Below, piece by piece: positions 29,410-32,301 of a stretch of 64,000 bases of DNA. The notes under the pieces are model-generated. The model saw only the letters and a list, made by a program, of their open reading frames with translations. It was not told the origin of the DNA and did no database searches. Numbering within the stretch: position 1 is the stretch's first letter; the number at the start of each line of letters is the position of its first letter. The position numbers and the translations under genes were made by a program. The stretch is taken from contig NZ_SNXI01000001.1 in NCBI RefSeq assembly GCF_004362895.1, positions 1 through 64,000 of the forward strand. Reading direction: 5' to 3'. The DNA is from Idiomarina aquatica. GTDB lineage: Bacteria > Pseudomonadota > Gammaproteobacteria > Enterobacterales > Alteromonadaceae.

Positions 29410-30921
29410 ATGACAGATAAATCGCAATCACCCGACGTCGACGTAAACGAGCAAATCGCACAGCGAAAAGCGAAACTGACGGCGCTCCGTGATAAGGGCA
29501 TTGCGTTTCCTAATGATTTTCGTCGCGACTCGCTAGCTAACGATTTACAAGCCGAATACGGCGAGGCAACAAAAGAAGAACTGGAAGCTCAGGGTGTTCG
29601 GGTAAAAGTTGCCGGACGCATGATGACCCGTCGTATTATGGGTAAGGCAAGTTTTGCCACGATCCAGGATATGAGTGGTCGTATTCAGTTATATGTTGCG
29701 CGGGATAACCTGCCTGAAGGCTACTACAACAGCGAATTTAAAAAATGGGACCTGGGTGACATCGTCGGTGCCAGCGGTACACTGTTTAAAACCAATACCG
29801 GTGAGTTGAGTGTGCAGGTGGATGACGTGCGGTTATTGACCAAAGCACTACGACCGTTACCCGATAAGTTCCATGGTCTGGCCGATCAGGAAACACGCTA
29901 TCGTCAACGCTACCTTGATTTGATTACTAACGAAGCGTCGCGCAATACCTTTGTGGTGCGTTCAAAAGTTATCGAATACATTCGTCGCTTTTTGACGGAG
30001 CGTGAGTTTTTAGAAGTTGAAACACCGATGATGCAAACCATCCCCGGCGGCGCTTCTGCGCGTCCGTTTAGCACCCATCATAATGCGCTGGATATGGAAT
30101 TATTCCTGCGGATTGCACCGGAACTGTATTTAAAACGTTTGGTTGTGGGTGGCTTCGAGAAGGTATTCGAAATTAACCGTAATTTCCGCAACGAAGGTTT
30201 ATCGACTCGTCATAACCCTGAGTTCACCATGCTGGAGTTCTACTGGGGCTATGCGGATTATCATGATTTGATGGATATCACCGAGCAAATGCTGCGCGGT
30301 ATCGCCGAGTCTGTGCTGGGCACCACTACTTTCACCAGCCAGGGCGTTGATTACGATTTCGGTAAGGCGTTTGAGCGGATGACGGTACTGGAAGCAATTC
30401 TTAAGTACATGCCGGAGCTAACCCCAGAGCAATTACAGAGCCGTGAGTCGGCGGTACAAATTGCCGAAGAGGCGGGTATTGAGGTACAGCCGGGCTGGGG
30501 CTTGGGTAAAATTCAAATCGAAATTTTCGAAGAAGTGGCCGAACATAAGTTAATTCAGCCAACGTTTATCACGGCATACCCGGCCGAAGTATCACCGTTG
30601 GCACGCCGTAACGATGACGATCCGTTCGTTACCGATCGTTTTGAGTTCTTTGCAGGCGGCCGCGAACTGGCTAACGGTTTCTCGGAGCTTAACGATGCCG
30701 AAGATCAGGCGCAGCGTTTCCGTGATCAAGTAGAAGCTAAAGAAGCGGGCGATGACGAAGCGATGTTCTACGACGAAGATTACGTTACGGCGCTGGAGCA
30801 TGGTATGCCACCAACGGCGGGCGAGGGGATCGGTATCGATCGTCTGGTGATGTTATTAACCGATTCACCATCGATTCGCGACGTGCTGCTGTTCCCGCAC
30901 ATGCGTCCAAAGGCTGACTAA
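29410..30921 (+). CDS. lysS: Lysine-tRNA ligase (class II)
   Basis: Charges tRNA-Lys. The 503 aa compare with 505. An N-terminal OB-fold anticodon-binding domain (about 60-170, with [20 protein letters not shown]) is followed by the class II catalytic core: motif 1 around [19 protein letters not shown], motif 2 [20 protein letters not shown] and motif 3 [16 protein letters not shown]. It forms the prfB-lysS pair and is followed by the large inverted repeat at 30951-31115, which may terminate it. Confidence 0.98.
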
Positions 30922-30950
30922 ATAAACTTGCTTTAAGGCGCAGCGTGATT

Positions 30951-31115
30951 GGGGCTTTGGTTTCTGTTGCTGCGTGCAGGGTTTAGGGTAGGCTCGCCAA
31001 AGGGTGTTGGAGGCCATGGATGGCCGGAAACAAGCGTACATGGATGTACTTGCAGCGTCCCTTTGGCGAGCCTACCCTGAACACTGCAAAACGCAGCGGC
31101 AGAGACCAAAGCCCC
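30951..31115. repeat. Long near-perfect inverted repeat with two inner hairpins (MITE/BIME-like)
   Basis: The left arm (30951-31004) and right arm (31059-31115) are inverted copies with about five mismatches and one 3-nt gap, including a 23-bp perfect outer-loop-proximal block from AGGGTAGGCTCG to GCCAAAGGG. The 54-bp centre holds two further palindromes, GGCCATGGATGGCC (31012-31025) and GTACATGGATGTAC (31036-31049). The whole can fold as a cloverleaf of three stems. It lies exactly between convergent lysS and the APC permease, so it may act as a bidirectional terminator; its architecture also suggests a small mobile repeat. Short open frames inside it are treated as spurious. Confidence 0.85.
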
Positions 31116-31134
31116 CTACATCCAGCCACGCCCT

Positions 31135-32301
31135 CTATGCCAACGCCGCCAGCACGACAAGCCCAAAACAGCTGATCAAACCAATTACCGAAACCCACTT
31201 CGGAATAAAACGCTGCTCACTGCTCACTTTCAATGCCGCGATGTTGGTAATGCCGTAGTAAACCAGTACCGTAAAGGCGCTGAGTGTCCAGGCGGACTCT
31301 ATACCACCGAGTAGCGCAATAATTGCCATTACGGCAAAGGTTGCCCAGGTGGCTGCGGGGGCGGATTGATTATCGTTGCTCAAATGGGCTAGTGATTGTG
31401 GCAAGTCACCGCGGCGACCCATGGCTAACACTACGCGTGACACGCCTAATACCAGGTTCAATACCACGCCACTCATGGCGACTACACCGCCAAGGACGAC
31501 TAGCCAACGCCAGCTTGGGTCGCTAATGAGATTGGCAATATTGAAGTTACTTTGCTCGAACGATGCGATACCGCCGAGGTGTAAAATTGCCAGTCCGACG
31601 GCGATATAAATGGCGCTGACTACGGCCAGGGTTAGGACTACGGCTTTAGGAATATTGCGGCGCGGCTCTGTAATTTCTTCACCCATGGTGGCGATGCGGC
31701 CGTAACCGGTGAAGGCGACAAACATGAGTGCGGCGGCGTGGAATAACGACAATGAATCGACTGATACTGTTGCTGAGTTTGTGGTTTTTTGTGCACTAAA
31801 CGTTGCGATTATAAAGGCTGTCAGACCTGCCAGACTTATCAGCACCAGAACGATATTAAGCCAATTGGTGCGACGTACGCCGGATAAAACAAAGATCGTT
31901 AATAGTATTAACAGTCCAACTGCTATGAGATTCACGATCCATGCGCTAAGACCCATTGTCACGCTGATATACCATGCTACCGCCAAAGCTGCGGTGGCGG
32001 CTGATGCGCTCTTGGCAATAATGAATAACCAACCTGCAATACGGCCGCTCAGAGGGTTTAAAAAGTGGTAGCCGTATTCGTAGGTTCCGCCGCTGACCGG
32101 GTGCGCGGCAGCAAGTTGTGCTGATGACAGGCCATTGCATAGGGCGGTAAAGGCAGCAATTACAATCGCCCACACCAGCAAACTGCCTGCGATGCTGGCG
32201 CTCAAACCAACGCTGACATAAGCACCGGTGCCTAGAATTGAGCCTAAGCCAATAACAAGCGCACCACCTAAGCCGGTATTTCTAATAAGTTTAGCTGTCA
32301 C
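31135..32301 (-). CDS. APC-family amino acid permease
   Basis: An inner-membrane secondary transporter of 388 aa. About ten to eleven hydrophobic helices are visible. The first helix carries the APC substrate-backbone motif GLGSILGTGAYVSVG, followed by HPVSGGTYEYGYHFLNP. TGYGRIATMGEEITEPRRNIP matches the conserved helix 6-7 loop region of the family. The length is at the short end of the family, and the protein stops soon after the last helix. The substrate cannot be assigned. It is divergent from ogt and transcribed alone. Confidence 0.85.
   Translation of the reverse strand: MTAKLIRNTGLGGALVIGLGSILGTGAYVSVGLSASIAGSLLVWAIVIAAFTALCNGLSSAQLAAAHPVSGGTYEYGYHFLNPLSGRIAGWLFIIAKSASAATAALAVAWYISVTMGLSAWIVNLIAVGLLILLTIFVLSGVRRTNWLNIVLVLISLAGLTAFIIATFSAQKTTNSATVSVDSLSLFHAAALMFVAFTGYGRIATMGEEITEPRRNIPKAVVLTLAVVSAIYIAVGLAILHLGGIASFEQSNFNIANLISDPSWRWLVVLGGVVAMSGVVLNLVLGVSRVVLAMGRRGDLPQSLAHLSNDNQSAPAATWATFAVMAIIALLGGIESAWTLSAFTVLVYYGITNIAALKVSSEQRFIPKWVSVIGLISCFGLVVLAALA

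Follow-up and report, generated by a model that had tools for sequence, protein, structure and literature searches.

Small RNAs of the CsrB and RsmX-Z type are encoded by one to a few genes, each carrying many GGA sites. Palindromic repeats of the REP, REPIN and BIME kind are extragenic, often stand behind genes as single copies or inverted pairs and reach many copies per genome, and MITEs are short, non-coding and dispersed elements whose presence varies by species. A further RNA, TwoAYGGAY (RF01731), is placed in clan CL00106 together with CsrB and rsmX. It was listed as a candidate RNA by Weinberg et al. 2010 (PMC2864571). In the sections of a later paper that deal with it (PMC4333381), its outer stem is described as not well conserved, one stem contains tandem G.A, CsrA binding is proposed from motif matches and, as of 2014, its function is treated as unknown. 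The CsrA idea is therefore prior to our work. Following the analyses below, we regard the element behind lysS in Idiomarina aquatica as related to TwoAYGGAY without being a formal member of that family, and we think it probable that it is a spreading repeat whose RNA, at the 3' end of transcripts, binds CsrA; transcription, binding and route of spread are what we infer from the sequences compared.

The window, a stretch of 64,000 nucleotides, carries this element on the plus strand at 30951-31115 as a near-palindrome of 165 nt. It lies behind lysS (29410..30921, plus strand), whose stop codon ends 29 bp ahead of it, and faces a convergent amino-acid permease gene (31135..32301, minus strand), whose stop codon starts 19 bp past it. 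The first-pass annotation had described inverted arms of about 55 bp matching at about 90%, and the arm alignment confirms them: a 5' arm of 54 nt with locus-specific sequence (30951..31004) and a 3' arm of 57 nt (31059..31115), both on the plus strand, align with 49 Watson-Crick pairs, 4 G.U, 1 other mismatch, 0 A.C and 3 gap positions, and the 3' arm contains a 3-nt A bulge (31088..31090) about 29 nt from the core. Between these two sides of the rod lies a core of 54 nt (31005..31058), similar across the copies in the genome and consisting of two GGA-loop hairpins with linkers. Hairpin 1 is the palindrome GGCCATGGATGGCC (GGCC-ATGGAT-GGCC, 31012..31025), flanked by a tandem G.A-like GGA/GGA and a GTT/AAC stem, and hairpin 2 is the palindrome GTACATGGATGTAC (GTAC-ATGGAT-GTAC, 31036..31049). 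The two perfect palindromes with an ATGGAT core had been noticed at the outset; their likeness to CsrA sites had not been mentioned. RNA from 30940-31125 is predicted to fold at -123.4 kcal/mol; 200 dinucleotide shuffles average -67.5 (sd 4.3), and none of them equalled it (z -13). The predicted shape is not a tRNA-like cloverleaf, as the earlier word might suggest, but a long rod that ends in two small hairpins.

GGA is found in both loops of 66 out of 66 copies, 23-25 nt apart, in a set that was found by a GGA-containing model. Some loops in this set read AGGGAT, AAGGAT or AGGGAC rather than AYGGAY, and in 7 of the 66 hairpin 2 is GTACAGGGATGT, which we take to resemble the CsrA consensus. 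Conservation per column amounts to about 1.4-1.5 bits across the hairpin regions, compared with 0.5 across the modelled arms. Most of the 24 aligned copies, L023 and L025 excepted, share with the window copy the GGA/GGA adjoining hairpin 1, and an A-rich bulge motif, AAAGC, is present 20-40 nt from the core in 17/31 right (3') arms of the own genome. Median arm length is 53 bp for the Idiomarina set, compared with 28 bp for Marinobacter/Halomonas.

The window copy has two adjacent AYGGAY-loop hairpins inside an outer stem, as TwoAYGGAY does, and the tandem G.A in a stem is represented, by sequence, as GGA/GGA. Of the Rfam families it matches TwoAYGGAY best, on the sense strand, with 30.0 bits against a gathering score of 43. 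Four of the 20 own copies scanned gave such a match (the window copy, none of 8 copies in six loci at E 1, and three of 11 in five loci), the three besides the window copy at 27-31 bits, and 5/15 loci from other genera matched at 34-37.6 bits. The gathering score was reached by no tested copy, the best being 37.6 bits, and a search of the own genome with TwoAYGGAY at E 0.001 gave no match. Unrelated microRNA families also match these long hairpins, one of them at 61 bits, above TwoAYGGAY. Given that long hairpins attract chance microRNA matches, the Rfam evidence is modest and the two-hairpin layout weighs more.

Copies are numerous and dispersed, as the first-pass annotation had suspected. 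BLAST with the window element gave 25 matches in the own genome, including the window copy and its own reverse complement; the remaining 23 cover the core and the innermost arm and not the full arm length. At E 0.001 this search matched nothing but copies of the element, and the idea that the arms act as guides to other genes was rejected on that result. A covariance model (R1) built from 24 own-genome copies finds 32 copies in this genome, 31 of which were located, and 8 to 28 copies in each of 13/18 congeners; it finds 0 in the remaining five (G008, G009, G012, G013 and G018). With R1 the element was found in 13/42 genera of a 60-genome set, and the class-wide survey found it in 46/274 genomes and 41/222 genera (own included), which are lower bounds because at most 15 candidates were scored per genome under strict filters. 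An exact 24-base core pattern gave 29 stretches, from Idiomarina aquatica, I. seosinensis, many Marinobacter and one Halomonas MAG. Copies frequently stand behind genes in many related marine bacteria, and the sites that they occupy vary by species.

The annotation had offered "structured RNA" as one possibility, and this was upheld by the way in which the arms vary. Across the 24 own copies, all 15 modelled arm pairs vary on both sides and 95.4% of the cells still pair, with a covariation score of 0.599 compared with 0.175 when shuffled and at most 0.162 when the partners were slid. In the 66-copy set, whose alignment is fitted to the model, 95.1% pair and the score is 0.719 versus 0.197 shuffled, while double-change pairs and further pair types, two of the five measures of covariation, are not above the shuffles. 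The mismatches that do occur in the arms of 123 copies, read on the ATGGAT strand, are 314 G.U versus 73 A.C; per copy, G.U exceeds A.C in 88, is the fewer in 4 and ties in 31, a count that includes orthologues and therefore non-independent copies. The same holds for the Marinobacter/Halomonas set (G.U 32 versus A.C 2), comprising 42 of 43 copies, one copy having given no arm and been dropped, from 23 loci, which are all the non-Idiomarina loci among the 29 exact-pattern stretches. Since A.C is what G.U becomes on the opposite strand, pairing is most likely kept in RNA from the ATGGAT strand, and the structure most likely selected as an RNA read from that strand, while a mutational strand bias could contribute to the G.U excess. 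For the analyses of arm identity, mismatches and pairs, the partial matches L155:2469, L158:2215 and L182:2004 were removed by a length filter and L117/L118 were omitted as duplicates of L172/L163-L164.

We propose that a copy would be read from the ATGGAT strand, probably because transcription of the gene ahead of it (here lysS) continues into the element, and that the transcript would form a rod with about 50 bp of stem and the two GGA loops at its tip, where a single CsrA dimer would bind them. Each copy could then dock CsrA on the 3' end of an mRNA, and together the 32 of them, offering up to 64 sites, might act as a diffuse CsrA decoy. As DNA, the element behaves like a repeat whose sites often lie behind genes and hold either one copy or an outward-facing pair, and transposition is the presumed spreading route. 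A sigma-70-like promoter of its own was considered and rejected: in a scan of 122 copies with sigma-70-like position weights, the mean score was 4.97 upstream and 4.60 downstream compared with 5.17 for shuffled sequence (p 0.086 and 0.57), which is no upstream enrichment. A T5 within 40-75 nt of the core is found in 8/123 right arms versus 10/123 left arms, and the window copy has no T-run past 31115. With neither promoter enrichment nor T-run there is no sign of a free-standing sRNA gene, and for this reason read-through is assumed.

The regulator required by this reading is available, as a CsrA gene is found in 40 of the 40 genomes searched, own and non-carriers included. CsrA genomes without the element exist, the 5/18 congeners among them, so the element is dispensable. 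The five element-free congeners have two or three CsrA-family matches each and 8/13 carriers have one, a difference that may reflect kinship only. CsrB (RF00018) has no above-cut-off match in the 13 Idiomarina genomes searched, the own genome among them, with a search that may miss diverged RNAs, and none in the window stretch; there is one sub-threshold RF00018 match, in the non-carrier G012, and RF00166 matches both the own genome and G012 at sub-threshold scores, where again diverged RNAs may be missed. Perhaps the dozens of two-site rods, standing behind genes at places that vary by species, amount to a network of CsrA sites across the genome that grew out of a mobile repeat; it would set the free CsrA pool and tie individual mRNAs to it, replacing a CsrB-type RNA or working beside it. 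We offer this extension tentatively and hold it to be clearly less probable than CsrA binding by a spreading 3'-end element.

The arrangement of neighbouring copies is regular. In the filtered set, close copies face outward in 34/34 pairs, with a median gap of 100 bp between the model ends, and the Marinobacter/Halomonas set adds 10/10; among the matches filtered out, the partial L158 would be a (+)(+) exception and L182:2004/2163 a further (-)(+) pair. By a mechanical ORF caller, and with copy L119:199 left out of this count and of later analyses, 28/44 clusters lie between convergent ORFs and 1/44 between divergent ones; for the Marinobacter/Halomonas neighbours the same kind of caller gave 9/33 convergent, 12/33 both minus, 5/33 both plus, 2/33 divergent and 5/33 with one neighbour unseen. 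Where copies form an outward pair, transcription from the closest convergent gene would run through the copy next to it in the antisense direction. In some cases outward-facing copies lie 1-1.6 kb from each other and enclose genes. One such interval, between copies about 1 kb apart in G003 (L172 15110-15724), holds a small two-gene pair that we take to be toxin-antitoxin-like, and another in G005 (L151 14669-15781) holds a transposase gene, presumably IS110-like. At L098 (3580-3970), four tRNA genes stand in a row just ahead of an element pair, and in the I. aquatica comparison genome the intergenic piece that holds this pair is inverted. A second short palindromic repeat, CTCGCGCC..GGCGCGAG, was seen by eye behind genes beside the element or instead of it, at the own loci L006, L007, L098 and others and at the lysS end of G004 (L027).

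The occupants of individual sites differ between species. No element follows lysS in any of the 18 congeners, and this, together with the 32 own copies, contradicts a single-copy lysS terminator conserved in all relatives, the outcome that the first-pass annotation had named as contrary to its proposal. Between the own genome and the I. aquatica comparison genome, 7/9 of the copy-bearing stretches fetched match own copy-bearing stretches by their flanking genes; by eye, one site has like arms in an inverted intergenic piece, and other sites have different arms, a turned occupant or a chimera-like remnant. In closer species (flanks about 84-97% alike), eight elements in the same orientation have arms 0.87-0.98 alike, with lower same-orientation cases at L159/L169 (0.80 and 0.68) and L155/L165 at 2.5 kb (0.60 and 0.57), and with the left arm lost at L160/L170 at 4.4 kb. 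Where orientations at a site are opposite, arm likeness is only 0.58-0.80 in the seven best matches. On the comparison with the 0.87-0.98 of same-orientation elements, other same-orientation pairs being lower, plain in-place inversion was rejected as the general cause of opposite orientations; replacement by another copy explains them about as well as inversion. One site that in G017 is occupied by a pair, about 370 bp in all, is empty in G003; at the sole empty site read closely (L172 versus L182), any target duplication is at most 2 bp and not convincing. At L176/L179 a pair and a single copy lie within the same boundaries, and at another site G017 has two elements, of which G005 has one and G016 and G003 the other. 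As we read these unpolarised comparisons, copies are probably gained, lost, turned or replaced between species.

In 10/11 same-element orthologue pairs, chosen from the best arm-identity matches, two 50-bp core windows are 92-100% alike, mostly above the flanks; no clear conservation peak is seen at L162/L185, with core windows at 92 and 84%, or at L172/L182, where the flanks are equally alike. Within a genome, arm identity between copies that share the same core has a median of 0.39 and a 95th percentile of 0.725 (370 pairs). An origin of the arms from the target site was dropped because same-site copies in diverged species retain their arms and the likeness of arms at different sites is graded up to 0.86. 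At three sites (L207, L214 8600-8830 and L215 11690-11990, in G003, G016 and G005) the element of a sister species has as its counterpart another short repeat, with CCTGA(T/C).. palindromes, and families of palindromic repeats may replace one another at the same sites.

The consistent outward pairs, the presence of a pair where a relative has an empty site or a single copy, and same-site occupants that differ or oppose in orientation are also what would be expected of a mainly selfish DNA repeat. Its mobile unit, comparable to a MITE or REPIN, would be the outward pair, mobilized in trans by a transposase, and the hairpins that resemble CsrA sites would be a by-product or work to the element's own benefit. 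We consider this possible and on the whole rather unlikely, given that the one-strand G.U bias indicates RNA and that the arms differ so much between copies of the same core. Neither is a vehicle or a mover evident: 72,556 plasmid and 50,697 phage records gave 0 matches at E 1e-5 and an exact 23-base pattern is absent from the viral contigs searched, so that phage or plasmid carriage was rejected, and among transposases the search for Y1 enzymes gave no link. Seven of the 13 carrier congeners are without a Y1 match and 4/5 non-carriers have one, so that in the genus Y1 presence does not follow the repeat as it would for REP/REPIN elements with a RAYT, and on the pattern across the 18 congeners a REP/IS200 transposase was rejected as general driver. 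The own genome has two Y1 transposase matches, and a local role is therefore possible. The "non-autonomous mobile repeat" of the first-pass annotation accordingly survives as far as occupancy differs between species, and the link that it drew to an IS200/IS605 or REP-associated transposase is not supported.

A still less probable reading, which we doubt, is a two-way terminator or mRNA 3'-end stabiliser for convergent genes, with GGA loops of little weight. The convergent neighbours here and at most clusters would suit it, and plain terminator-like hairpins were seen by eye after lysS in several congeners. Against this, the lack of a T-run after the arms does not agree with an intrinsic terminator, separate terminator-like hairpins adjoin some copies (by eye), and the double GGA at near-fixed spacing in every one of the 66 copies is left unexplained. 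Finally, an attC-like recombination site of structured single-stranded DNA that gathers cargo between pairs, as the enclosed two-gene pair and transposase and the differing or turned occupants might suggest, is very improbable given the G.U versus A.C asymmetry, which favours RNA over DNA pairing, and a typical gap in the close pairs that is too short for a gene.

Returning to CsrA binding by a repeated 3'-end element, the comparison with known systems can be summarized as follows. Like MITEs, the element is short, non-coding, dispersed and variably present; it differs from them in that pairing is kept by changes on both sides, in the lack of a clear target duplication at the one empty site, and in that no parent element was found among the Y1 transposases searched. 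It shares with REP, REPIN and BIME sequences its palindromic form, its place behind genes and its many single or paired copies, and departs from them in having no Y1 pattern in the genus, about 165 nt with a two-hairpin core, and arms that are mostly locus-specific. With CsrB and RsmX-Z it shares GGA loops on hairpins, and would share CsrA binding and titration, but it offers two sites per copy in many dispersed copies and has no promoter signal. As a palindromic RNA element that moves without an obvious transposase, it provides a system for studying such movement; if the proposal is true, a repeat family is spreading regulator-binding sites through bacterial genomes, and if the relatives of TwoAYGGAY are a dispersed, turning-over double-GGA repeat, that family becomes directly testable. 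A repeat of this dispersed, paired and turning-over kind is not described in the open-licence literature searched, including the relevant portions of PMC2864571, PMC4333381, PMC11701678, PMC5864184, PMC9788540 and PMC4383904. The closest likeness is to TwoAYGGAY itself, in the two neighbouring AYGGAY-loop hairpins within an outer stem and in the match of the window copy on the same strand, whereas the element is sub-threshold, has up to 32 copies per genome, bears locus-specific arms of about 28 bp or 50 bp, forms outward pairs and differs in occupancy. What is new here is that the repeat is dispersed, paired and turning over, that its wobble pairs favour one strand, and how far it is distributed in Gammaproteobacteria.
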